Positions 14,846 to 32,575 of a stretch of 64,000 nucleotides of DNA are shown here, piece by piece. The translations under genes were made by a program, and so were the position numbers. Origin of the DNA: Meiothermus sp. (lineage in GTDB: Bacteria > Deinococcota > Deinococci > Deinococcales > Thermaceae); assembly GCF_026004075.1 (NCBI RefSeq), contig NZ_BPIK01000002.1, forward strand, positions 496,001 through 560,000, in the 5' to 3' direction. The first letter of the stretch is position 1. Each line of letters starts with the position of its first letter. The notes below the pieces were generated by a model, which ran no database searches, had not been told where the DNA came from, and worked only from the letters and a program-made list of their open reading frames with translations.

Positions 14846-15898
14846 GTGCAACTGGTAGACATGACCGTTTTTATTATGGACGATGAGCCATCCAGCGTGG
14901 CGTTATTGCAGAGAACCCTCGAGCGTGTAGGATTTTCCCGCATATACGCAACCACCGACCCAACCCGTTTCGAGGAGTTTTTGCACCGGCTTAATCCCGA
15001 CGTCATCCTCCTGGATATGCACATGCCGCAGCGGAGCAGCCTGGAGATACTCAGATTTTTACAAGAACACCGGAAGGACAACGGATATTTGCCGGTTCTG
15101 GTGCTCACGTCCGACGCCACCGCTGCGGCCAAGCACCGGGCCCTCAACCTTGGGGCTGCCGATTTTTTGCATAAGCCCTTTGATCTGCTCGAAGTGGTGC
15201 TCCGGGTGCGCCATCTGCTGGAGATCCGCTATTTGCACCTGCGGCTAAAGGACGAAAACCTGCGCCTGGAGACGGCGGTGCAGGCCCGTACCCAGGAGCT
15301 GCAAGAGGCGCACCTGGATGTGCTAAGGCGTTTGGCCTATGCAGCGGAGTTTCGCGATGACGATACGGGCTCGCACGTACACAGGGTGGCGGAAAATGCC
15401 AGCCGATTGGCCCAGCGTTTAGGCTTGGAGGCTGGCTGGGTCGAGGTGATCCGGCGGGCTGCGCCCTTGCACGACATTGGAAAGATCGCCATACCAGATG
15501 CCATTCTCCGCAAAACCTCCCGGCTCACCCCCGAGGAGTACGAACTTATGAAAAGCCATACCGTGGTGGGTGCGGCGATGCTCGAGGGGGGCAAGTCGGT
15601 TTACCTGCAAATGGCCCAGCGAATTGCCCGCTCCCACCACGAACATTTTGATGGAAGCGGCTACCCAGACGGCTTGAAGGGTGAGGCCATCCCGTTAGAA
15701 GCCCGCATTGTAGCGGTGGTGGATGTGTTTGATGCCCTGGTGAGCCAACGACCCTTCAAACAAGCCTGGCCTGTGCCGGAGGCCGTGGCAGAAATTAGGC
15801 GCCAGGCAGGTCTTCATTTTGATCCCGCAACGGTTGAGGCGTTCTTGCGGTGTGTTCGTGCCGGGGATGTTTTGTTGCCAGACACATTGGTCGGGTAG
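14846..15898 (+). CDS. Response regulator with HD-GYP phosphodiesterase domain
   Basis: Receiver domain fused to a c-di-GMP-degrading HD-GYP domain. The receiver (about residues 5-125) has the acidic pair in FIMDDEPSS, the phospho-acceptor Asp in VILLDMHMPQ and the Lys in LHKPFDL. A coiled linker (about 130-160) leads to the HD-GYP domain with HDIGK, the HHEHFDGSGYPDG block and IVAVVDVFDAL, so metal and GYP motifs are intact. GTG 14846 with GAGGGG upstream is chosen; GTG 14828 and ATG 14861 are alternatives. It is transcribed away from the GGDEF gene, so synthesis and breakdown of c-di-GMP are encoded back to back. No histidine kinase is adjacent. Confidence 0.88.
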   Translation: MQLVDMTVFIMDDEPSSVALLQRTLERVGFSRIYATTDPTRFEEFLHRLNPDVILLDMHMPQRSSLEILRFLQEHRKDNGYLPVLVLTSDATAAAKHRALNLGAADFLHKPFDLLEVVLRVRHLLEIRYLHLRLKDENLRLETAVQARTQELQEAHLDVLRRLAYAAEFRDDDTGSHVHRVAENASRLAQRLGLEAGWVEVIRRAAPLHDIGKIAIPDAILRKTSRLTPEEYELMKSHTVVGAAMLEGGKSVYLQMAQRIARSHHEHFDGSGYPDGLKGEAIPLEARIVAVVDVFDALVSQRPFKQAWPVPEAVAEIRRQAGLHFDPATVEAFLRCVRAGDVLLPDTLVG

Positions 15899-16013
15899 AC
15901 TCTCGGCTTTGGGCAGCTCTGCGTAAAAATGCGTAGCAAACACACGAGGATGAGAAGCTGTTTTGATATAGTACCCTGGTGCTGTTTGGCTACGGCTAGA
16001 CAGGGGATGACCC

Positions 16014-16847
16014 ATGGGCCGCAATAATGCTTTCTCGTTTGCTCTCCCAGCAGTTGTTACGCTGGGTCTGTTTTTGCTGTACCCGTTTTTAGATGTGCTG
16101 CGCTTTTCAACCTGGGACTGGTCGGGTTTATCCGAGCCCAGACCTATTGGCCTCGAGAACTACCACAATATTCTGCGCGACCCCGATTTTTACAAGAGCC
16201 TGCGCATCACCCTGATTTTTGGTGCCATGACCCTGCTGCCTTTTGTCCTGCTTTCGGTGCTGCTAGCTCTGGCTTTGGACGGCCAGCCCTATGAACGCCC
16301 CATCAAGGCCCTGCTCTTTTTGCCGGGGCTAGTTACGCTGGGGGGGGCCGCGGTGGCCTGGTACACCCTATTTTCACCTGAATATGGCGCGCTGGCCTCG
16401 CTGGTTCCGGTGCCGCGCTGGGATCAGAGCCCCTTCTGGGCTTTGGTACTGATAATGCTTTTTACTATCTGGCGGCACATCGGCTATGGGGTGCTGGTGG
16501 TCTCGGCCCGGCTAAAGGCCATTCCCAAGGCCCTGCTCGAGGCTGCCGCCGTAGATGGGGCTACCCCGGCCCAGTCCTTCCGCTTCATTACCCTGCCCCT
16601 ACTGCGCCCGGCCATTACTTTTCTGATGGTGATCGGTACCGTTCTAACCCTGCAGGGCTACACCGCGGTATTTTTGTTGACCCGTGGGGGCCCCTTTGGA
16701 GGTACCGAGGTACTCGGCTACTACCTCTACAAAACCGGCTTTGAAGCAGGGCGTCTGGGTTATGCGGCGGCCCTTACGGTGGTTATACTTCTGCTAACCC
16801 TGAGCTTTGCCTTGGCCCAAGCCCGGCTCTTGCGGGAGGAAAGGTGA
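16014..16847 (+). CDS. ABC sugar-type permease, MalF/UgpA-like
   Basis: Inner-membrane permease of a carbohydrate-uptake (CUT1) ABC importer. The 277 residues hold about six membrane helices (first LPAVVTLGLFLLYPFLDVL) and the ATPase-docking EAA loop EAAAVDGATPAQSFRFITLP near residue 178. It is the first gene of a three-gene unit with a MalG/UgpE-type permease and a binding protein. No ATPase gene is nearby, so a shared ATPase encoded elsewhere is likely, as is common for CUT1 systems. Confidence 0.88.
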   Translation: MGRNNAFSFALPAVVTLGLFLLYPFLDVLRFSTWDWSGLSEPRPIGLENYHNILRDPDFYKSLRITLIFGAMTLLPFVLLSVLLALALDGQPYERPIKALLFLPGLVTLGGAAVAWYTLFSPEYGALASLVPVPRWDQSPFWALVLIMLFTIWRHIGYGVLVVSARLKAIPKALLEAAAVDGATPAQSFRFITLPLLRPAITFLMVIGTVLTLQGYTAVFLLTRGGPFGGTEVLGYYLYKTGFEAGRLGYAAALTVVILLLTLSFALAQARLLREER

Positions 16848-16881
16848 TGGCTGGGCTTGTTCTCCACCTGGAGGTGTACCC

Positions 16882-17676
16882 ATGCGCTGGCTAGGGCACA
16901 TGCTGGTATGGACAGTGGCCTTTTTGGTGGCCCTGCCCTTTATCTGGATGGCCTATGCAGCTTTTATTCCGCCCGAGGCGGTATTTAGTGGCGAGATATT
17001 TGGGCGAATGGGGTTTAGTCTGGCCAACTTCGAAGTGCTGGGCCGGGAGGGTTTCTGGGAAGGTTTTTGGGGGCGTTTGCTGTTCTCGGTACTCCTGACC
17101 GGGAGTGTGACCCTGCTACAGCTCACCACCGGCTTTTTGGCCGCTTACGCCATCAAGGAGGGCGCTAAGATTCTGCCGTTCTTTTTGGTATTGCTGGCTA
17201 TCCCGGTTGAACTGCTGCTGGTGCCCCTGTACGGAGTCCTGGCAGGACTGAAGTTGTTGGACACTATTTGGGCCTTGGTGCTGCCCTTTGCAGCTAGCCC
17301 CTTTATTGTGTACCTGCTGTTCCAGGGGATGCGCACCGTTCCGGAAGAGCTGCTCGAGGCTGCCCGGCTCGATGGGGCCGGCCACCGCGTTTTGCTCTTG
17401 CGTATCCTGCTCCCGCTTTTGCGCCCTCAACTAATAGCCGCGGGCGTACTGGCCTTCGCCGCCCACTGGAACCTGGTGCTCTATCCGCGAATTGTGGCTG
17501 GCAGTAAAGAACTAAAAACCGTTCAAACCTGGATTACCGACCTACAGCGCCAAAACCCAGCCGACTGGGGCCCCCTATCGGCAGCGGCCCTGGTTGCAAC
17601 CCTGCCCTTAATCATTGTTTACCTGCTTTACGAGCGGAGAATAGTTGAGACTTTCGAGGAAGGCCTCAAAGGGTGA
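16882..17676 (+). CDS. ABC sugar-type permease, MalG/UgpE-like
   Basis: Second membrane subunit of the same importer. ATG 16882 (MRWLGHMLVWTVAFLVALPF) is chosen because GGAGGTG lies 6 bases upstream; the frame is open further upstream but only as overlap with the previous gene. The 264 residues contain six predicted helices and the EAA loop EAARLDGAGHRVLLLRILLP. It pairs with the preceding permease; the substrate is best guessed from the binding protein that follows. Confidence 0.88.
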   Translation: MRWLGHMLVWTVAFLVALPFIWMAYAAFIPPEAVFSGEIFGRMGFSLANFEVLGREGFWEGFWGRLLFSVLLTGSVTLLQLTTGFLAAYAIKEGAKILPFFLVLLAIPVELLLVPLYGVLAGLKLLDTIWALVLPFAASPFIVYLLFQGMRTVPEELLEAARLDGAGHRVLLLRILLPLLRPQLIAAGVLAFAAHWNLVLYPRIVAGSKELKTVQTWITDLQRQNPADWGPLSAAALVATLPLIIVYLLYERRIVETFEEGLKG

Positions 17677-17804
17677 GCCATACCGGATTCCCTGGGTGAT
17701 CGTTGCTACTTAAACCCGCTCGCTTGAGTGAACTTTTTTCTCATGCAGGGTGTGGCAAACTGAAACGGGGTTTGCCCAGTGGCAGACCGTGGAGGATAAA
17801 GCAG

Positions 17805-19004
17805 ATGCGTTTTTTGATCGTGCTGTTGGTGGGTCTGGGGTGGGCTTTGGCCCAGCGCCCGATCGATATCCCTTTTTGGCATACGGCGGGGCCTCCAGGC
17901 CAGGAGCCTCTGGAGGAGATGATTCGCGAGTTCAACGCTCGGCAGCGGGACTACCGGATTGTGCCTAGCTTTGTGGGGGACTACCGCGAGGGGGGGTTAA
18001 AGCTCTTGGCGGCGCTGCGTTCCGGTGGCGCGCCAGCGCTGTTTCACGCCGAGATCTCTTTCCTGGGGCGGATGGTTCAAGATAACGTAGCCCAGCCTCT
18101 GGATGAATACTTGGGAAGCCTGCCCGGAGATTTTTATCCTGGATTTTTGGAGACCGGCAAGCTGCGAGGCCGCACCTACGGGCTGCCCATAGGCCTCTCG
18201 GTTCCGGTGCTGTTCTATAACGCCGACCAGTTTAGCTCTAAGGGATTGAGCGCGCCGCGCACATGGGACGATGTGGTAACTGCGGCCCAACGCCTGACTA
18301 CCCGTGCCGCCAAAGGCTACACGGTCTCGAGCGACATCTACAGCTTTGTGGTGCTGGTAATGAGCCGCGGGGGATCCATCGTCAACAGCCAGGGCCGCCC
18401 CGACTTCGCCAACCCCAAAGTGGTTGAGAGCCTCGAGTTCTTACAGGGCATGGTGCGGAAGAACATCGCCCAGAGCCGGAACATCGCCGAGGCCCAGTTC
18501 TCTGTAGCCGACTTTTTGCGCACCAAAACCTTTATGGGCGTTGCGCCCATTACCCTGTGGCCGCTGATCGAGAACCGCGCCCCTATCCCTTTCAGGCTGG
18601 GAGTTGCAGCGGTACCCCGCGTGGAAGGTGGAAAAGTACCGCTGGCGGGTGGCACCCTGGTGGTGCTCCGCGGGGCTAGCGAGCAGCAGATCCGCGGTGC
18701 AGTGGCCTTCTGGCGCTTCGCTATGGAGCCGGCTAACATCGCCAAATGGGTCAAGGCCACCTACTACATGCCCATGCGCCGGGCTGCTCAGCCTTTGCTG
18801 GAAGACTTTTACAAAGAAGATCCCCGTCGTCGGGTGGCCTTCAGCCAGGTAGAGCACGCCGACGTGTGGCTGCAAGACCCCGAGTTTACCATCTGGTATA
18901 GCTTCCTGGAGGATGCCCTCGAGCGCGCCCTGAAAGGCAACGCCAACGCCAGACAGGTGCTGGAAGAGGCCCAGCGCCGCGCCAACAGCGTTGAGCGCCG
19001 CTGA
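17805..19004 (+). CDS. ABC solute-binding protein, UgpB-like
   Basis: Extracytoplasmic binding protein of the CUT1 importer. ATG 17805 has GGAGG nine bases upstream and gives a proper signal peptide (MRFLIVLLVGLGWALAQ). The mature start IDIPFWHTAGPPGQEPLEEM and the stretch LKLLAALRSGGAPALFHAEI resemble UgpB, the glycerol-3-phosphate binding protein, so a polyol phosphate or sugar is plausible; the specificity is inference. The 399-residue length fits the family. It is the last gene of the operon, and a 7-bp hairpin (GGCAAAC/GTTTGCC, 17754-17776) sits in the 128-base gap before it. Confidence 0.82.
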   Translation: MRFLIVLLVGLGWALAQRPIDIPFWHTAGPPGQEPLEEMIREFNARQRDYRIVPSFVGDYREGGLKLLAALRSGGAPALFHAEISFLGRMVQDNVAQPLDEYLGSLPGDFYPGFLETGKLRGRTYGLPIGLSVPVLFYNADQFSSKGLSAPRTWDDVVTAAQRLTTRAAKGYTVSSDIYSFVVLVMSRGGSIVNSQGRPDFANPKVVESLEFLQGMVRKNIAQSRNIAEAQFSVADFLRTKTFMGVAPITLWPLIENRAPIPFRLGVAAVPRVEGGKVPLAGGTLVVLRGASEQQIRGAVAFWRFAMEPANIAKWVKATYYMPMRRAAQPLLEDFYKEDPRRRVAFSQVEHADVWLQDPEFTIWYSFLEDALERALKGNANARQVLEEAQRRANSVERR

Positions 19005-19091
19005 TCTGGGATGAGCCGGGGCTTTAGCGTGGCTGGATCCTCGGGAACCTGGTATGAGTGAAGTTCATGCTGGTCGATCCATTACACCGTC

Positions 19092-19120
19092 TTGACAGCA
19101 ATACGGTGCGTGGGTACACT
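19092..19120 (+). promoter_or_regulatory. Lysine operon promoter
   Basis: Consensus -35 TTGACA (19092-19097), a 17-base spacer and -10 TACACT (19115-19120). The hexamers and spacing are identical to the 16S rRNA promoter in this window, so it should be a strong housekeeping promoter. Transcription should begin near 19127, only a few bases before the leader ATG at 19131. Confidence 0.85.
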
Positions 19121-19130
19121 TCCCCCTGGG

Positions 19131-19175
19131 ATGATCTTAAGTGCAAAAAAACCCAGTGCCGGGAGGCTAGTCTGA
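19131..19175 (+). CDS. Lysine operon leader peptide
   Basis: A 14-residue mini-ORF, MILSAKKPSAGRLV, with tandem AAA AAA lysine codons (19146-19151) and a TGA at 19173-19175. It has no Shine-Dalgarno sequence and starts about four bases after the predicted transcription start, so it would be read from a leaderless mRNA. It lies directly upstream of competing hairpins and a terminator before homocitrate synthase. Leader-peptide attenuation of the lysine cluster has been reported for T. thermophilus; this is the expected counterpart. Its role as the lysine sensor is inference from that precedent and from the layout. Confidence 0.85.
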   Translation: MILSAKKPSAGRLV

Positions 19176-19231
19176 GCTAGCCCGCGCACTGCGTATCCCG
19201 GCCCGCACACAGCTTGCGGGCGGTTTTTTTT
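19155..19231 (+). terminator. Transcription attenuator of the lysine operon
   Basis: Terminator: perfect 7-bp stem GCCCGCA (19201-19207) with TGCGGGC (19215-19221), then GG and eight T. Upstream competitors: hairpin GGCTAG/CTAGCC (19165-19170 with 19177-19182), extended by AGTGC/GCACT (19155-19159 with 19186-19190); and an alternative 7-bp pairing GCCGGGA (19158-19164) with TCCCGGC (19196-19202), which invades the left arm of the terminator. GCCCGC in the 19181-19186 region could also pair with the terminator's right arm. Ribosome stalling at the Lys codons would change which pairs form. Confidence 0.8.
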
Positions 19232-19243
19232 ATAAAGGAGTTT

Positions 19244-20482
19244 ATGCCAGCGCCCACCCAAGCCCACCGCATTGAAATTGTGGATACCACCTTCCGTGAT
19301 GGCCAGCAGTCACCGCTTTTGTTCGATACTGAGAAGTATCGCTTCACACTGGAAGAGAAGAAGGTGCTGATGACCGGCTTGCTCGAGCTGGGGGTTACCC
19401 ACTTCGAGTTTTTTTCGCCGGTGGTGGGGGTGGCCGAGGCGCAGGATGTGCGGGAGCTGATAGCCCATGCCAGCGCGCTTAGCCAGAAGCCCCTTCGCTT
19501 TCTGGCCCACTGCCGCTGCAACCTGGAAGACATTGGGCGGGCGCTCGAGATCGGCTGCAACGGTCTGAACCTCTACCTGGGGGTTTCGCCTCTGGCCCAG
19601 CAGCACAATGCCCAAAAATCCCTGGAGGAATCGGTTCAACTGGCCCAGGAGGTGATTGCTGCTACCCGCGCGGCCCACCCCGACCTGTATATCCGATTTA
19701 GCGCCGAGGATGCCTTTCGTACCCCGCTCGAGGACATTTTTTGCCTCTACGATGCGGTTTACCCCTACGTGAATACCCTGGGCATGCCCGACACCGTGGG
19801 CATCGCCGAGCCCGAGGACGTGAGCGCTGTGGTGGCCCAGCTACGCCAGCGCTATCCTGAGGTGGCACTCGAGTGCCACTTCCATAACGACCGGGGCCTG
19901 GCCCTGGCCAACGTAATTGCCGCGGTGCGGGCGGGGGTGCGCTATGTGGACGCCTCCATCTGGGGCCTGGCTGAGCGTTCGGGCATCCCCTCGGTCACGG
20001 GGGTGCTCTTCAACCTCTCGAAGCGCTACCCTGAGATTGCCCAGCAGTACAACTTAAGCCAGTGCTATCCCCTCAATGTGCTGATGGCCTCTATTCTGGG
20101 TACGCTGGTGCCCTACACCGAGCCGGTCTCGCTTACCAACCGCACCCATACCGCCGGCGTGCACCAGAAAGCTGTTCTGAATGAAAAGAAAGTCTACGAG
20201 GCCCACAACCTGCACGACTTTGGGGTGGATAAAAACCAACTGCTGCTAGGGCCGCTATCGGGCTGGAACCTGATTTACTACTATCTGAAAGAAGTGGAAG
20301 GTTTCGTGATTAGCAAGGAGCAGGCCAAGCAGATTGCGCAAGAGTTCAAGGGCCGCACCGGCGAGATTGGGCGCCAGAAGAAACCCGAGGAACTCCTGCT
20401 GGAAATTGCAGAGGCGTATGGCCTGCCACGCCATACCCTGCCCGAAGAAGTGCCCACCGCACGTTTGGAAAACCTGGACTGA
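19244..20482 (+). CDS. hcs: Homocitrate synthase
   Basis: Condenses 2-oxoglutarate with acetyl-CoA, the committed step of lysine synthesis by the alpha-aminoadipate route. ATG 19244 (MPAPTQAHRIEIVDTTFRDG) has AAAGGAG four bases upstream. The 412-residue protein has the DRE-TIM metallolyase catalytic opening TTFRDGQQS, the metal histidines in CHFHNDRGLA and HTAGVHQKAV, and an accessory C-terminal region. As I recall it, T. thermophilus HCS opens with STLREGEQF, so this enzyme appears to belong to another branch of the citramalate/isopropylmalate/homocitrate synthase family; the assignment rests on its place as first gene of the lysine operon behind a Lys-codon leader. Confidence 0.85.
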   Translation: MPAPTQAHRIEIVDTTFRDGQQSPLLFDTEKYRFTLEEKKVLMTGLLELGVTHFEFFSPVVGVAEAQDVRELIAHASALSQKPLRFLAHCRCNLEDIGRALEIGCNGLNLYLGVSPLAQQHNAQKSLEESVQLAQEVIAATRAAHPDLYIRFSAEDAFRTPLEDIFCLYDAVYPYVNTLGMPDTVGIAEPEDVSAVVAQLRQRYPEVALECHFHNDRGLALANVIAAVRAGVRYVDASIWGLAERSGIPSVTGVLFNLSKRYPEIAQQYNLSQCYPLNVLMASILGTLVPYTEPVSLTNRTHTAGVHQKAVLNEKKVYEAHNLHDFGVDKNQLLLGPLSGWNLIYYYLKEVEGFVISKEQAKQIAQEFKGRTGEIGRQKKPEELLLEIAEAYGLPRHTLPEEVPTARLENLD

Positions 20483-20534
20483 GGTTTTTTATGCTTAAGT
20501 GCTGCAGTAAAACATGTTTGGATGGGAGGTTGTG

Positions 20535-21785
20535 ATGGGGCTGACTATGGCCGAAAAAATCCTGTCTGCACGAGCCGGGCGTCAGGTGCGAGCAGGTGAG
20601 TTGGTAGTGGTTGAGGTAGACCAGGTGATGGTGGTGGACTCCATCGCCGGGAGTTTTTTCAAGCGACTGGAGCAATTGGGCGCCACACCGCGTTTCCCGG
20701 AAAAGGTCGCCATCGTGATTGACCATGTGGCCCCTGCGGCCAACGTGGAGGTAGCCAAGGCGCAGAAAGAAATTCGGGCGTGGGGCAACCGGTATGGCTG
20801 CCGGGTGTTCGACGTGGGGCGGGGCATCTGCCACCAGGTGCTGGTGGAGGAGCGCCTGGCCTTGCCAGGGGGTATTGTGCTGGGCTCGGACAGCCACTCC
20901 ACCACCTACGGCGGCATCGGCTGCTTTGGCAGTGGGATGGGGGCCACCGACATCGCACTGGCTGCGGCCTCGGGGCGCACCTGGCTGCGCGTGCCGGAAA
21001 CCGTCAAGGTCACCTTCCGGGGGCAGCTCGCACCGGGCGTGACCGCCAAGGATGCGGCCCTCGAGATGATTCGAGTGCTGACCGCCGATGGGGCTACCTA
21101 CATGAGCATTGAGATGCACCTGGTAGATGGGGCCGAGGCCCTGAGCCGTAGCCAGCGCCTGACCCTGGCCAACCTTACGGTGGAGGCTGGGGCCAAGTGT
21201 GGGCTGGTGGTGCCCAGCGGCGAGATTCTGGAGCTGTACGAGGTGCCCGACTGGCTCTACCCCGACCCCGATGCGGTTTACGTGCGCGAGATCGAGATCG
21301 ATCTGGCGGCCCTGACCCCCCGGGTCTCGGTGCCGTTTTATGTGGATAACGTGGAGGATGTAGCCAAGGTGAGGGGTAAGAAGGTGGATCAGGTGTTTGT
21401 GGGCACCTGCACCAACGGACGGCTGGACGACCTGCACCAGGTGGCCGAAATTCTCAAAGGCCGTAAAGTGGCGCCGGGGGTGCGGCTGCTGGTGATACCG
21501 GCCAGTTCGCAGGTACTCGAGGAGGCCACTGCCGATGGCACCCTGCTCACCCTGCTGCAGGCCGGGGCCACGCTGGGCACCCCGGGCTGTGGGCCCTGTA
21601 TGGGACGGCACCAGGGCGTGCTGGCCCCCGGCGAGGTGTGCGTGAGCACCTCCAACCGCAACTTTAGGGGTCGGATGGGGGCGGCCGATGCCGAAATTTA
21701 CCTGGCCTCGCCCCGGGTGGCCGCTGCTTCGGCGGTTGCCGGTTACATCACCACCCCGGAAGAACTGGAGGTGACCCATGCCTAG
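20535..21785 (+). CDS. lysT: Homoaconitase large subunit
   Basis: Large, iron-sulfur subunit of homoaconitase, which isomerises homocitrate or cis-homoaconitate to homoisocitrate. ATG 20535 (MGLTMAEKILSARAG) has GGGAGG seven bases upstream. The 416 residues show the aconitase-family blocks IDHVAPAANVEVAKAQ, LGSDSHSTTYGGIGCFG, the first cluster Cys in VGTCTNGRLDDL, and the Cys pair in GTPGCGPCMGRHQG, so all three 4Fe-4S ligands are present. It overlaps lysU by 8 bases. An isopropylmalate isomerase (LeuC) is the close alternative; operon context decides. Confidence 0.93.
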   Translation: MGLTMAEKILSARAGRQVRAGELVVVEVDQVMVVDSIAGSFFKRLEQLGATPRFPEKVAIVIDHVAPAANVEVAKAQKEIRAWGNRYGCRVFDVGRGICHQVLVEERLALPGGIVLGSDSHSTTYGGIGCFGSGMGATDIALAAASGRTWLRVPETVKVTFRGQLAPGVTAKDAALEMIRVLTADGATYMSIEMHLVDGAEALSRSQRLTLANLTVEAGAKCGLVVPSGEILELYEVPDWLYPDPDAVYVREIEIDLAALTPRVSVPFYVDNVEDVAKVRGKKVDQVFVGTCTNGRLDDLHQVAEILKGRKVAPGVRLLVIPASSQVLEEATADGTLLTLLQAGATLGTPGCGPCMGRHQGVLAPGEVCVSTSNRNFRGRMGAADAEIYLASPRVAAASAVAGYITTPEELEVTHA

Positions 21786-22281
21786 GGTCTGGAAGTTTGG
21801 CGATGCCATCAACACCGACGACATTTTGCCGGGCAAGTATGCCCCTTTTATGGTGGGTGAGGATAAGTTCCACACCTATGCTTTTGCCCACCTTCGACCC
21901 GATTTTGCCGCCAACTACCAGCCGGGCGATATTCTGGTTTGCGGTAAGAACACCGGCCTGGGCTCTTCGCGCGAGTATGCCCCGGAAGCCCTGCGCAAGC
22001 TGGGTCTGAAGGCCATTATCGCCAAGAGCTACGCCCGTATCTTTTATCGCAACCTGGTTAACCTGGGCATCATGCCCTTTGAGGCCCCGGAGGTGGTGGA
22101 GGCCTTGCAGGATGGCGACGAGGTGGAGCTGGACTTCGAGCAGGGCCTTTTGCGGCGCGGGGCCGAGACCTTCCGGCTCCGCCCGCCCCCGGCCTTTCTG
22201 CTGGAAGCCCTCAAAGAGGGCAGCATTTTGGAGTACTACCGCAAGTATGGGCGGTTTCCTGGTGAAGGTCTTGAAGGGTAA
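21778..22281 (+). CDS. lysU: Homoaconitase small subunit
   Basis: Swivel-domain subunit that completes the homoaconitase active site with LysT. The 167-residue protein begins MPRVWKFGDAINTDDILPGK and has the substrate loop KNTGLGSSREYAPEAL and IIAKSYARIFYRNLVNLGI, all typical of LeuD/LysU. Its ATG lies within the end of lysT (8 base overlap), which fits obligate subunits. The specificity toward homoaconitate rather than isopropylmalate is inferred from the operon. Confidence 0.93.
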   Translation: MPRVWKFGDAINTDDILPGKYAPFMVGEDKFHTYAFAHLRPDFAANYQPGDILVCGKNTGLGSSREYAPEALRKLGLKAIIAKSYARIFYRNLVNLGIMPFEAPEVVEALQDGDEVELDFEQGLLRRGAETFRLRPPPAFLLEALKEGSILEYYRKYGRFPGEGLEG

Positions 22282-22302
22282 ACTGGGGCGGTTGAGGCCT
22301 TT

Positions 22303-22611
22303 ATGGATATAGAAGTGATCTGTCCGGTATGCAACGAGCCCAACTACCTGCTCGCCGAAGACCTCGAGGAGCTCACACCCGATGATTACCTGGAGTGTGA
22401 GTCCTGCGGGGCCTATCTGCAAGTTCTTTCGACCGACCCGCTCGAGGTGGTGGCAATCGAAGATGGTGAAGAAGGTTTTTTTGTAGACTGCCCCGAGTGC
22501 GGCCTGACCTTCGAGGTGGATGGCAGCGAAGAAGAGGTGGTATGCCCCGAGTGCGGGCACCGTTTTGCGCCGGACTGGTCGGAGATAGACGAGGAAGACG
22601 ATCTGGAATAG
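22303..22611 (+). CDS. Double zinc-ribbon protein of the lysine cluster (OrfE-like)
   Basis: 102 residues, function unknown. The sequence is two tandem LysW-like zinc ribbons: CPVCNEP with CESCGAY (about residues 8-11 and 33-36), and CPECGLTF with CPECGHRF (about 62-65 and 79-82). It is strongly acidic, ends in EIDEEDDLE and contains PDWSE, faintly recalling the EDWGE tail of LysW but not ending in it. It sits 21 bases after lysU and 22 bases before lysW, the position of the uncharacterised orfE in the T. thermophilus lysine cluster as I remember it. It may be a scaffold, a zinc or cluster donor, or a regulator; nothing in the sequence decides. Confidence 0.8.
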   Translation: MDIEVICPVCNEPNYLLAEDLEELTPDDYLECESCGAYLQVLSTDPLEVVAIEDGEEGFFVDCPECGLTFEVDGSEEEVVCPECGHRFAPDWSEIDEEDDLE

Positions 22612-22633
22612 CTACGAGGTAGAAGGAGGGATT

Positions 22634-22798
22634 ATGACAGCCGAGTGTGTGGAATGTGGAAGCCCGATCGAACTGGAGAGCCCTGAGCTGGGGGAGCTGG
22701 TGGTTTGTGAGACCTGTGGTGCGGAGCTCGAGGTGGTGGGGCTGGAGCCCCTGAGGCTACAGACGGCCCCCGAGGAAGCGGAGGACTGGGGCGAGTAA
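22634..22798 (+). CDS. lysW: Amino-group carrier protein LysW
   Basis: 54-residue acidic carrier whose C-terminal Glu gamma-carboxyl is joined to the amino group of alpha-aminoadipate, protecting it and presenting it to LysX, LysZ and LysY. Start ATG 22634 has GGAGGG upstream (AAGGAGGG, 5-base gap). The protein opens MTAECVECGSPIEL, has a second Cys pair in VVCETCGAEL (zinc ribbon, Cys5, 8, 25, 28) and ends in the diagnostic EDWGE. It lies between the OrfE-like gene and lysX. Confidence 0.97.
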   Translation: MTAECVECGSPIELESPELGELVVCETCGAELEVVGLEPLRLQTAPEEAEDWGE

Positions 22799-22806
22799 AT
22801 AGCACC

Positions 22807-22848
22807 CGGGAGCGGGCCCGCCGGCCTGCTCCCGACCCCTGATTTTTT
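22807..22848 (+). promoter_or_regulatory. Intercistronic hairpin between lysW and lysX
   Basis: Perfect 7-bp stem CGGGAGC (22807-22813) with GCTCCCG (22828-22834) around a GC-rich loop that can pair further (GGCC with GGCC), followed eight bases later by six T (22843-22848) that run into the lysX ATG. The spacing is too long for a classical terminator. It may lower readthrough or protect the upstream mRNA, giving more carrier than enzyme; this is inference. Confidence 0.5.
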
Positions 22849-23694
22849 ATGCTGGCGATTCTGTACGACCGCATCCGCCCCGACGAGGAGATGCTCTTCA
22901 AGGCTGCCGAGGGGCTGGGCATTCCTTTCAAGAAAATCTACGCCAAGCAGATGCCCATGCGCCTGGGGGAACGCCCGCCGGAGCTCGAGGGCGTTACCTG
23001 TGCGGTGGAGCGCCTGGTCTCCCAGAGCAAGGGTCTGGCGGTCTCGCGCTACTTAAAAAGCCTGGGGATTCCGGTGGTGAACGCCCCGGAAGTGATCGAG
23101 GTGTGCGGGGACAAATGGGCCACAAGCTGTGCCCTGGAGGCCCATGGGGTGCCCCAGCCCAAGACCGCCCTGGCCACCGAGGCCGAGGAAGCCCTCAAGC
23201 TGATCGAGCAGATGGGCTACCCGGTGGTGATGAAGCCGGTGGTGGGGAGCTGGGGCCGCCTGCTCTCGCTGATCCGCGACCGCGATGCCGCCGAGACGGT
23301 GCTCGAGCACAAGGAGGTGCTGGGGGGCTACCAGCACCAGCTTTTCTACATACAGGAGCTGGTGGACAAAGGCGGCCGGGACATCCGGGCCTTTGTGGTG
23401 GGGGATACCTGCATTGGGGCCATTTACCGCTCCTCGACCCACTGGATTACCAACACCGCCCGCGGGGGCAAGGCCTCCAACTGCCCGGTGACGCCCGAGC
23501 TGGCCGAGCTGGCGGTCAGGGCGGCCCGGGCGGTGGGGGGTGGGGTGGTGGCCATCGACCTGTTCGAGTCGCCTCGAGGCCTGCTGGTCAACGAGGTCAA
23601 CCACACCATGGAGTTCAAGAACTCGGTGAGCACCACCGGGGTGGACATCCCGGCCAGGATTCTGGAGTACGCCTGGAGCTTGCGACTGCGTTAG
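22849..23694 (+). CDS. lysX: LysW-alpha-aminoadipate ligase
   Basis: ATP-grasp enzyme that joins the amino group of alpha-aminoadipate to the C-terminal Glu of LysW. The 281-residue protein has the RimK-like blocks [40 protein letters not shown] (nucleotide-binding), and the C-terminal metal and substrate region [20 protein letters not shown] with [20 protein letters not shown], close to Thermus LysX. Start ATG 22849 immediately follows a T-run and has no clear Shine-Dalgarno, so translation may depend on coupling to lysW. Confidence 0.95.
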
Positions 23695-24738
<1,044 letters not shown>

Positions 24739-24741
24739 GCT

Positions 24742-25308
24742 ATGGTTGTCGTCGGTAGCACCAACCCGGCCAAGCTCGAGCCCGTGCGCCTGGTGTTCGC
24801 GGAAATGTTTCCGGGCCTGGAGGTGCGCGGGGTGGAGGTGCCCAGCGGGGTGCGGGCCCAGCCGATTGGCTACGATGAAACCCTGCAGGGGGCCCTAAAC
24901 CGGGCCCGGGCGGCCCTGGCCCAGCCCGGTGCGGTCTGGGGGCTGGGGCTGGAAGCCGGGGTGGAGTTCAACGCCCAGGGGAGCTGGCTCTTCAACATAG
25001 CGGTGATCCTGCGGGCCGATGGGCGGCGGGGTATGGCCCGCGGCGGCTCGGTTTTGCTTCCGCCGCGGGTGGGGGAGCGCCTCTTCAGAGGCGAGGAGCT
25101 GGGCCTGATCATGGACGATCTGGTGGGAAAAAAAGACACCAAGAAGGGCAGCGGTGCGGTGGGCATCCTCACCCTTTCGCGCATCGAACGGATGGAGTTC
25201 TGGCGGCACACCCTCGAGCTGGCCCTGCCCCCTTTTCTGCGCCCGGAGCTTTATCCACTAGAGGGTGTGGCGTACCTGTTCCCCGACACCCAGGGAAAAT
25301 CGGTATGA
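24742..25308 (+). CDS. yjjX: Inosine/xanthosine triphosphatase, YjjX family
   Basis: House-cleaning NTPase (DUF84/YjjX) that hydrolyses ITP and XTP. The 188-residue protein has VVVGSTNPAKLEPVRLVFAE at the start, GLGLEAGVEFNAQGSWLFNI in the middle and MDDLVGKKDTKKGSGAVGIL with the family's DL..K...KGSGA signature. It lies 3 bases after lysY and 21 bases before lysZ, so it is inserted in the lysine operon and co-transcribed, though no metabolic link to lysine is known. ITPase (RdgB) is a different family and does not fit. Confidence 0.88.
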   Translation: MVVVGSTNPAKLEPVRLVFAEMFPGLEVRGVEVPSGVRAQPIGYDETLQGALNRARAALAQPGAVWGLGLEAGVEFNAQGSWLFNIAVILRADGRRGMARGGSVLLPPRVGERLFRGEELGLIMDDLVGKKDTKKGSGAVGILTLSRIERMEFWRHTLELALPPFLRPELYPLEGVAYLFPDTQGKSV

Positions 25309-25329
25309 TGGCGGGCTAGAGGTTGGGCG

Positions 25330-26139
<810 letters not shown>

Positions 26140-26165
26140 ACCCCAGGCGGTACAATCGCCTCAAT

Positions 26166-27944
26166 ATGGAAAAGCTCATCTCCCGGCGCGACCTCGAGTT
26201 CCTGCTGTACGAAGTGCTGGACGTGGAGGCCCTCACCCAGCGCGAGCGTTACCGCGACCACAGCCGCGAGACCTTCAAAGATACCCTGGATGTGGCCTAC
26301 CGCATCGCAGTCGAGCAGTTCGCCACCCACAACAAGAAAAACGACCAGGAAGAGCCCTGGTTCGACGGCGAGCGGGTGCACACCAACCCCGAGGTCAAGG
26401 CGGCCCTCGAGGCCTACCGCAAAGCCGGCCTGTTTGCAGCCACACACGACTACGCGCTGGGCGGCATCCAGCTGCCCTACGTGATTGCCACGGCCTACGG
26501 CGCTTTGTTCAAGGCGGCCAACATCGCTACCGCCAGCTTCGCCCTGCTTACCGCGGGCAACGCCAACGTGCTCCGCAAGTATGGCTCGCCAGACCAGCAG
26601 AAGAAATACCTGCTGCCCCAGCTCGAGGGCCGCTTCTTTGGCACCATGTGCCTCTCCGAGCCCCACGCTGGCTCCTCGCTCACCGACCTCCTGACCCGCG
26701 CCGAACCCCAGGCAGACGGCACCTACCGGCTCAACGGCTCCAAGATGTGGATTTCCGGGGGCGACCACGAGATTGCCGAGAACATCGTGCACCTGGTGCT
26801 GGCCAAGATTCCGGGCGGGCCACCGGGGGTCAAGGGAATTTCACTATTCATCGTGCCCAAGTACCTGGTGCACGAGGATGGCCGCCTGGGGCCCCGCAAC
26901 GGGGTGCGGGTGGCCGGCCTCAACCACAAGATGGGCTACCGGGGGATTCCCAACTGCTTGCTGAGCCTCGAGGACGCGGTGGGTGAGCTGGTGGGCGCGC
27001 CGCACCAGGGTCTTTCCTACATGTTCACCATGATGAACGAGGCCCGCATCGGGGTGGGCATGGGCGCGATGGCGCTGGCCTACACCGGCTACCTGCACGC
27101 GCTGGAATATGCCCAGACCCGCACCCAGGGCCGTCGTCTGTACGACAAGAACCCGGCCAGCCCCGCGGTTCCCATCATCCAGCACCCCGATGTGCGCCGC
27201 ATGCTGATAATGCAAAAAGCCTACGCCGAGGGCTGCTTGCACCTGTGCCTGTATGCGGCCCGGCTGGTAGACGAGGAGCGTACCGCTCCCACCCCCGAGG
27301 CCGCCGAGCAGGCCCGTTTGCTGCTCGAGGTGCTCACCCCGGTGGTCAAGGGCTGGTCGAGCGAGCTGGGTATGCGGGCCAACGAGCTGGCTATTCAGGT
27401 GCACGGGGGCTATGGCTACACCCGCGACTACAACGTCGAGCAGTTTTACCGCGACAACCGCCTCAACGCCATTCACGAGGGCACCAACGGCATCCAGGCC
27501 CTCGACCTGCTGGCGCGCAAGGTGGGGATGCAGGGAGGGCAGGGCTTCCGGCTGTGGGCGCAGGAGGTCGAACGAACCATCCAGGCCAGCCGGGACACCG
27601 AGGCCCTGCGGCCTTACGCCGAAGCCCTCGAGCAGGCCCTGCAGACCACCACCCAGGTCACCCAGCACCTGCTGAACAAGGCGGCCCAGGGGGAGGTGGA
27701 ACGGGCTTTTGCCAACTCCTTTGCCTATCTGGAGCTGTTCGGCACGGTGACGCTGGCCTGGCTGTGGCTGGAGCAGGCGCGCAAAGCGTTGGGAAAGGAA
27801 GGGGCTTTTTACCGGGGCAAGCTCGAGGCCGCCCGCTACTTTTTCCTCTACGAACTCGACAAGGTGCCCCTGCTGGCTGCAAGGCTGATGCGCCTGGACG
27901 ATGTGTTTTTGTACCCCGAGCAGGACTGGTTGATCGCAGGGTGA
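26166..27944 (+). CDS. Acyl-CoA dehydrogenase (large, DmdC-like subfamily)
   Basis: FAD-dependent alpha,beta-desaturation of an acyl-CoA thioester. At 592 residues it is longer than typical short/medium-chain enzymes and fits the subfamily with an extra C-terminal domain. Visible are GTMCLSEPHAGSSLTDLLTR and KMWISGGDHEIAENIVHLVL (FAD/substrate blocks), QVHGGYGYTRDYNVEQFYRD, and AIHEGTNGIQALDLLARKV with the catalytic Glu. Start ATG 26166 is preceded by a -10-like TACAAT (26151-26156) nine bases upstream, so it may have its own leaderless transcript behind lysZ. The chain-length or methylmercaptopropionyl specificity cannot be read from the sequence. Confidence 0.88.
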   Translation: MEKLISRRDLEFLLYEVLDVEALTQRERYRDHSRETFKDTLDVAYRIAVEQFATHNKKNDQEEPWFDGERVHTNPEVKAALEAYRKAGLFAATHDYALGGIQLPYVIATAYGALFKAANIATASFALLTAGNANVLRKYGSPDQQKKYLLPQLEGRFFGTMCLSEPHAGSSLTDLLTRAEPQADGTYRLNGSKMWISGGDHEIAENIVHLVLAKIPGGPPGVKGISLFIVPKYLVHEDGRLGPRNGVRVAGLNHKMGYRGIPNCLLSLEDAVGELVGAPHQGLSYMFTMMNEARIGVGMGAMALAYTGYLHALEYAQTRTQGRRLYDKNPASPAVPIIQHPDVRRMLIMQKAYAEGCLHLCLYAARLVDEERTAPTPEAAEQARLLLEVLTPVVKGWSSELGMRANELAIQVHGGYGYTRDYNVEQFYRDNRLNAIHEGTNGIQALDLLARKVGMQGGQGFRLWAQEVERTIQASRDTEALRPYAEALEQALQTTTQVTQHLLNKAAQGEVERAFANSFAYLELFGTVTLAWLWLEQARKALGKEGAFYRGKLEAARYFFLYELDKVPLLAARLMRLDDVFLYPEQDWLIAG

Positions 27945-31942: not shown

Positions 31943-32575
31943 GAGACTGTCTTAATACTTTCTAGGAGGCCAATCTTCTGACCATAAGCGGATCATCGCT
32001 GTGTGATGAGGTCTCTGAGCTCTCAGGTAGAGCTCATAGTCCCGTTCAGCTCCGATTGAAGTCAGCAGGCAAACGTCGCTCACCACCCTCTCCGCGTCCT
32101 TCGCACTTCCTCTCAAGCGCTTGACTCCACACCAGCCTTGTGTATCCACAGCAGATGCCGTTTGCGCCCTTTACCTCTGCCCGCGTCATACCCCTGACCC
32201 CCTTTCCGAGTCTTCACGCTCTGGCTATCCAGATCCCGCGCTGGTTCGGCAGGCGTCTGCTTTACGCGGTTTCTCGCGCAGGTGGTATGTATCTGTTCAG
32301 AAACCCGATTTGCGCCACAAACGGAAGTAGTGATAGACGGTTTCAGTGGGCAGGTCATAGGGCATCATGCGCCAGCGCAGCCGGCGCGGGTGATGTAGAA
32401 GATGCCGTTCAGGATTTCCGCCAGGGATTCTCCGGGGGCGATGGGGGGCGGCGGAGGGCTGGGGCATCAGGGGTGCCAGTATGGCCCATTCCTGGTCGGT
32501 CAGATCGCTGGGGTAGCGGCTTTGTCTGAGTTCCATGCGTGACTATAGCATGAGGGAGGCTATTAAGACAGTCTC
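31943..32575 (-). mobile_element. IS5-family element, damaged copy (633 bp)
   Basis: Bounded by the same 15-bp inverted ends GAGACTGTCTTAATA as the intact copy at 45366-46297 and flanked by TTA direct repeats (31940-31942 and 32576-32578). It is reversed relative to the intact copy and about 300 bp shorter because the middle of the second half of the transposase is missing. The first 145 bases at the transposase start and the last 45 bases at the other end match closely, but the middle has lost one base at over 25 homopolymer runs. Confidence 0.93.
31960..32536 (-). pseudogene. IS5-family transposase remnant
   Basis: The reading frame opens at ATG 32536 (MELRQSRYPSDLTDQEWAIL), shifts frame after about 35 codons (run shortening in the CCCGGGAGA context) and stops early. 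Later parts of the transposase, including DSQSVK and the final RLM..RR region, are recognisable only in other frames, and the block with the second catalytic Asp is deleted. It cannot make active enzyme as written. Confidence 0.88.

Follow-up and report, generated by a model that had tools for sequence, protein, structure and literature searches.

The question raised by this locus is what a small protein with two zinc ribbons, here called ORF102, does in a lysine operon built around the carrier protein LysW. The window, that is, the whole stretch of 64,000 nucleotides that was analysed, was assigned to Meiothermus from named relatives of this genus, which are 83-97% identical. The first-pass annotation had located a 102-residue reading frame between homoaconitase and LysW, and this location is right, with LysU on one side and LysW on the other. 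The features that the argument needs are given below.

20514 to 21785, + strand: LysT, homoaconitase large subunit (TIGR02086, 577.9 bits against a cut-off of 410.15)
21778 to 22281, + strand: LysU, homoaconitase small subunit (NF010629, 318.6 bits against a cut-off of 229)
22303 to 22611, + strand: ORF102, 102-residue double zinc-ribbon protein with an ATG start; homologues in 69 of 111 genomes of the phylum
22303 to 22461, + strand: ribbon 1 of ORF102 (residues 1-53), predicted LysW-type globular domain, CxxC-x21-CxxC (PF21344; VIA-align)
22474 to 22578, + strand: ribbon 2 of ORF102 (residues 58-92), predicted generic zinc ribbon, CxxC-x14-CxxC, with PDW at its end (ZitP zinc finger 2nb9; profile)
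22579 to 22608, + strand: acidic C-terminal tail of ORF102, conserved neither in sequence nor in its end residue
22634 to 22798, + strand: LysW, carrier protein with four cysteines and a C-terminal EDWGE (TIGR01206, 91.1 bits against a cut-off of 53.2)
22849 to 23694, + strand: LysX, the ligase that loads aminoadipate onto LysW, with GSWGR present (TIGR02144, 397 bits against a cut-off of 275.6)
23698 to 24738, + strand: LysY, named as explained below
25330 to 26139, + strand: LysZ, named as explained below

ORF102 starts 21 nt past the stop of LysU and ends 22 nt ahead of the ATG of LysW, and it is confirmed as a real, conserved gene of the lysine operon. We take the last two genes of the list to be LysY and LysZ from gene order and similarity. 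The Meiothermus type of operon runs in the order homocitrate-synthase-like gene, LysT, LysU, ORF102, LysW, LysX, LysY, NTPase, LysZ, and the place of LysY in it is as in Table 1 of PMC3356886. The homocitrate-synthase-like gene (19214-20482, + strand) reaches 218 bits with TIGR02146, against a cut-off of 413.55, and is about 31% identical to the Thermus gene at the same place; it may fill the homocitrate synthase entry that is blank for Meiothermus in that Table 1. Between LysY and LysZ there is a DUF84 or inosine-xanthosine triphosphatase-like gene (PF01931; 24742-25308, + strand), retained in only some relatives. An Rfam scan of positions 15000-27000 gave no lysine riboswitch or other RNA at the gathering threshold.

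By gene order, the ORF102 gene of T. thermophilus HB8 would be TTHA1909, which we take to be the gene named orfE in the 1999 paper on the cluster. TTHA1909 occupies the same place, as third gene of the operon TTHA1911-TTHA1908, and the available text of PMC7662524 calls it a 'hypothetical protein' and gives it no function; LysT, LysU and LysX are TTHA1911, TTHA1910 and TTHA1907, respectively, in Table 1 of PMC3356886.

The eight cysteines of ORF102 form four CxxC pairs, and the first-pass annotation saw in them two LysW-type ribbons in tandem. This description stands for ribbon 1 and fails for ribbon 2, which is of another kind. The Pfam model of the LysW ribbon, PF21344, matches residues 7-49 with 30.0 bits (cut-off 27), and it is matched at E <= 0.01 by 29 out of 29 diverse homologues; the NCBI equivalog model of LysW, TIGR01206, gives 19.0 bits, under its cut-off of 53.2. 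When a profile of the 29 homologues was compared with PDB sequences, the LysW chains 5k2m (E 1.5e-7) and 3wwl (E 6.4e-7) ranked first, with matches that cover the first half of ORF102 only. In addition, each half was aligned by hhalign with cysteine-free LysW, a comparison that tests likeness beyond the shared cysteines. Ribbon 1 reached 92.3% (E 5.6e-7), its match lying on the strand that follows the second knuckle, and ribbon 2 showed no likeness (3.5%); against cysteine-bearing LysW the values were 98.4% (score 69.0) and 96.5% (score 46.9), respectively. From these figures ribbon 1 is, at the level of sequence, of the LysW type, ribbon 2 is a generic ribbon of another kind, and the idea of a double LysW is rejected.

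The predicted structure agrees with this for ribbon 1, so that the LysW-like fold assumed by the first-pass annotation was indeed found there. The AlphaFold2 model (mean pLDDT 75.6, pTM 0.43) was built with five close sequences only. For its residues 2-60 the top five entries in VIA-align were all LysW (Z 5.2-6.1, rmsd 1.8-3.7), and for residues 59-102 the ZitP zinc finger 2nb9 came next (Z 4.4), Z values of 4-6 being the range that the tool calls common. The best Foldseek match of the model was LysW 3wwn with E 0.012, none being <= 0.001. Ribbon 2 folded alone gave 2nb9 as best entry (Z 4.2, rmsd 2.7, 43 aligned), tied with LysW 5eio (Z 3.4), so the fold by itself cannot tell the two apart. 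Its sequence may point to the zinc_ribbon_4/5 group: PF13717 is matched at E <= 0.01 by 28 of the 29 homologues, with 24.1 bits for the window protein against a cut-off of 30.3 and 32.9-33.5 bits for the Thermus and f2 homologues L023, L043 and L045.

Ribbon 1 resembles LysW and ArgW (PF21344, TIGR01206; 3wwl, 3wwn, 5eio, 5k2m, 3vpb) in its CxxC pairs, its acidity and its gene position, and the strand after the second CxxC pair is similar (LQVLSTDPLEV against LEVVGLEPLRL in the comparison of ribbon 1 with LysW). ORF102 differs from LysW in its length (102 residues instead of about 54), in having a second ribbon where LysW has its carrier arm, and in the absence of EDWGE and of a conserved C-terminal Glu. 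Ribbon 2, in turn, may resemble the zinc finger of ZitP (zinc_ribbon_5) and zinc_ribbon_4 in fold (2nb9, Z 4.2-4.4) and in sequence (PF13717), but ORF102 has neither the membrane segment nor the DUF3426 of ZitP, and the window protein stays under the PF13717 cut-off.

Could ORF102 itself carry the growing lysine precursor? According to the available text of PMC10433800, LysX attaches aminoadipate to the last residue of LysW, a Glu, and LysX/ArgX recognise EDWGE through their GSWGR motif. We found EDWGE-COOH in 69 of 69 LysW sequences and GSWGR in 50 of 50 LysX sequences read, and no EDWGE terminus with an acceptor Glu among 49 ORF102 sequences. The window protein ends in DDLE, yet the last residue varies over the 49 genomes (W 15, E 8, Y 7, N 5, D 4, others), so the remark that ORF102 lacks the C-terminal Glu motif was right in substance. 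Since it has no fixed terminus and no EDWGE motif, the sequences make it very unlikely that ORF102 is a carrier. The parallel drawn in the first-pass annotation between PDWSE and EDWGE did not hold up: PDWSE (residues 90-94) lies after ribbon 2, and PDW[SG][ED] occurs in only 39 of 49 genomes (DW in 41), being absent in most f2/f3 rows and in genus g14 of f4; for these two reasons it is neither a carrier motif nor a relic of EDWGE. ORF102 is strongly acidic, with a net charge by residue count of -16 to -35 (median -32) and a median of -14 for LysW.

We searched 111 genomes of the phylum in five families, f1 (the family of the window) to f5; Deinococcus is not among them, and searches at the level of class and phylum drew on these 111 genomes just as the one at the level of order did. 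ORF102 was present in 69 genomes (f1 50/50, f2 4/4, f3 3/4, f4 12/14, f5 0/39) and LysW, by TIGR01206, in 101 (69 of the 72 of f1-f4 and 32 of the 39 of f5). Both occur together in 69 of the 72 f1-f4 genomes, and G005, G014 and G022 have neither. The ORF102 profile gave further matches in six f5 genomes; each of the listed matches spans a single ribbon, and LysW itself accounts for two of the three in the list. A scan of genome contigs with a single sequence and exact 8-residue patterns retrieved four Meiothermus loci, and a search of plasmids retrieved no ORF102 homologues.

Gene order was read in 53 lysine loci, which come from 49 of the 69 genomes with ORF102 (L002-L005, duplicates of the genomes of L007, L006, L010 and L009, are left out of the 49-genome counts) and in 20 of the 32 f5 LysW loci. 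The order LysU-ORF102-LysW-LysX was found in all 53 loci, and each of the 49 genomes has the gene within its lysine cluster, as the first-pass annotation led one to expect. LysU was present in 9 of the 20 f5 loci, and in all nine LysW is its neighbour; the two matches lie 48-173 nt apart, and ORF102 is absent. Family f5 therefore has LysW, LysX and often LysTU without ORF102, and an obligatory role of ORF102 in LysW chemistry is excluded. A branch of the LysX tree with 100/100 support has all 30 rows with ORF102 on the same side, so that one gain or one loss accounts for the distribution.

Where the gene is present, it is well kept. Exactly eight cysteines were found in ORF102 of all 49 genomes read, and all eight are invariant in the 29 aligned homologues. 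Ten pairs of species gave dN/dS values from 0.06 to 0.37, with eight values under 0.12, similar to those of LysU, LysW and LysX; ORF102 is under purifying selection.

A surprise came from LysW itself. Among the 69 sequences read, 47 have four cysteines and 22 have none, with nothing between. The available text of PMC10433800 lists four or three zinc-binding cysteines as crucial, and our literature search found no report of a cysteine-free LysW. These proteins keep EDWGE-COOH intact (L042, L044, L046, L047, L048, L051, L052 and the 15 f5 loci L060-L074), their LysX partner has GSWGR in 22 of 22 cases, and in the genomes where one of them passes the model cut-off it is the sole LysW to do so. 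On starred branches of the LysX tree the cysteine state changed at least five times. The seven f1/f3 genomes whose sole recognised LysW is cysteine-free all have an ORF102 with its eight cysteines.

The spacing of the genes is tight, with median gaps of 20 nt between LysU and ORF102, 22 nt between ORF102 and LysW, and 72 nt between LysW and LysX. ORF102 and lysW overlap in the Thermus-group genomes, overlap or nearly so in f4, and do not overlap in Meiothermus. In the Thermus group the ribosome-binding site of lysW lies inside ORF102, where the purine-rich codons for the acidic tail form it; this is one reason against reading meaning into the tail.

One pair of genomes records a replacement. 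When G028 (L051) is aligned with G035, most of the 3' end of LysT and most of LysX show 95-100% DNA identity. In the last third of lysU, in ORF102 and in lysW the identity drops to about 40-67%, and it recovers at the start of lysX. By gene, the nucleotide identities are 97% (LysT), 82% (LysU), 60% (ORF102), 69% (LysW) and 95% (LysX); a long gap also distinguishes the region between lysT and lysU. Judged from these alignments, ORF102, lysW and the final third of lysU were swapped in G028 as one tract. Six divergent-type ORF102s (L047-L052) group weakly on the ORF102 tree (77/78), and the LysX data reject this grouping (AU p 0.013, for a group named afterwards). Two of the six, those of G025 and G026, are paired with an ordinary LysW, so ORF102 and LysW need not change together; strict co-replacement, true of the G028 tract, fails for these two genomes.

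We tentatively favour a reading in which ORF102 is a relative of LysW that does not carry, and acts as an acidic accessory or adaptor for the enzymes of the LysW cycle. We count for it the specific likeness of ribbon 1 to LysW, the fixed position between lysU and lysW, the co-occurrence with LysW, the acidity, the overlap with lysW and the G028 tract. LysW is held by basic surfaces of the enzymes. ORF102 would have kept the globular ribbon of LysW and, instead of the flexible EDWGE-COOH carrier arm, would have gained another ribbon with an acidic tail behind it. Its acidic ribbon 1 might then dock on the basic surface that holds LysW (on LysX, LysZ, LysY or others), while ribbon 2 might bind a second pathway protein, be it another enzyme, LysW itself or homoaconitase; as a result, the enzymes would be kept together, or their hold on the carrier would be tuned. 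The protein would not be catalytic, and it would be dispensable for LysW chemistry as such because the sister family f5 manages without it. There are adaptors among the tandem ribbons of this fold class: TMEM55B is one, with structure matches that include LysW (available text of PMC12393467), and the ribbon of ZitP binds PopZ (available text of PMC5182065), the likeness in both cases being one of fold, and neither protein a relative for which the same action has been shown. A LysW-like acidic body that lacks the arm, joined to a ribbon of a kind known to bind proteins, fits an adaptor best and a decoy second. Of the decoy, scaffold or delivery partner proposed in the first-pass annotation, the general idea of an accessory to LysW-tethered synthesis would thus stand.

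Several results count against this reading: the pairing seen in G025 and G026, the presence of LysW, LysX and often LysTU in f5 where ORF102 is absent, and the common range of the Z values for a model built with five sequences. In addition, no insertion confined to the ORF102-bearing families was found in the enzymes of the pathway. Lineage-specific residues were compared between rows A and rows B (LysT 21 against 8, LysU 30 against 9, LysX 30 against 20, LysY 16 against 19, LysZ 8 against 14). The A-specific positions in LysT, LysU, LysX, LysY and LysZ were 2, 0, 3, 7 and 1, and the B-specific ones 2, 0, 5, 4 and 0; such positions are few, also in LysY (7 in one direction, 4 in the other).

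A bolder form of the adaptor reading, possible but on balance doubtful, is that ORF102 would be the first paralogue of an amino-group carrier that does not itself carry, a two-headed mimic of LysW that gathers the enzymes and arose when the ancestor of four Deinococcota families exchanged the arm for a second ribbon. LysW-tethered synthesis has been taken to need only LysW and the enzymes; a conserved relative of LysW that is inherited with it in the operon and does not carry would mean that the pathway has organising or regulating proteins, as the carrier systems of polyketides and fatty acids do. By gene order, the gene is in T. thermophilus HB27/HB8, which can be manipulated, so its role is directly testable, and f5 offers a natural control family without it.

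The same anatomy with the opposite effect would make ORF102 a decoy, a competitive regulator that sits where LysX or LysZ would bind LysW and slows the pathway, for instance at times of ample lysine. An acidic LysW-like ribbon without the carrier terminus, in a position for co-transcription with LysW, suits such a regulator, but an inhibitor that shares the operon and is always made requires a switch; no such switch was seen, nor was a ligand site recognised in ORF102. Furthermore, its C-terminal arm is without the EDWGE that the available text of PMC10433800 reports as the target of LysX GSWGR. We regard the decoy as unlikely.

Somewhat less probable still is an accessory of homoaconitase, which would act on LysT/LysU in assembly, Fe-S upkeep or the bridging of subunits. 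That ORF102 stands directly downstream of lysU in all 53 loci, and that the replaced tract of G028 begins inside lysU, would fit this role; against it, the nine f5 loci that hold LysU have LysT/U without ORF102. Moreover, recombinant homoaconitase of T. thermophilus was active in its half-reaction, apparently without ORF102 (available text of PMC3556520, citing Jia 2006), and the missing first half-reaction is already assigned there to aconitase. As the T. thermophilus aconitase does that step according to the same text, ORF102 is not needed as a missing enzyme of homocitrate dehydration.

A nucleic-acid-binding regulator, or a mere leader for the translational coupling of lysW, is improbable. 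Many profiles of transcription-factor ribbons match ORF102 weakly, and the Thermus-group overlap, with the lysW ribosome-binding site inside ORF102, is what a leader would show. Nevertheless, a net charge near -32 speaks against the binding of DNA or RNA, the eight invariant cysteines and the low dN/dS show that the protein itself is under selection, and the two genes do not overlap in Meiothermus. Finally, a zinc chaperone that loads or repairs LysW, suggested by a zinc-ribbon protein adjoining a zinc-ribbon carrier, is disfavoured and, by the sequences, largely refuted, since the seven f1/f3 genomes with a cysteine-free LysW keep the cysteines of ORF102 and f5 genomes with a four-cysteine LysW have no ORF102; we consider it highly improbable.

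Two minor observations lie outside the lysine operon. Two overlapping reading frames in the window (32113-32536, - strand) are presumably fragments of a broken insertion-sequence transposase, which they resemble. In the Thermus-group genome G064, a different protein of 161 residues (L054, 1442-1927, + strand), excluded from all the counts above, is encoded outside the lysine cluster; it has an N-terminal LysW-type ribbon (PF21344, 27.5 bits against 27) followed by an unknown second half, and one-ribbon matches like it occur in most genomes of genus g4.
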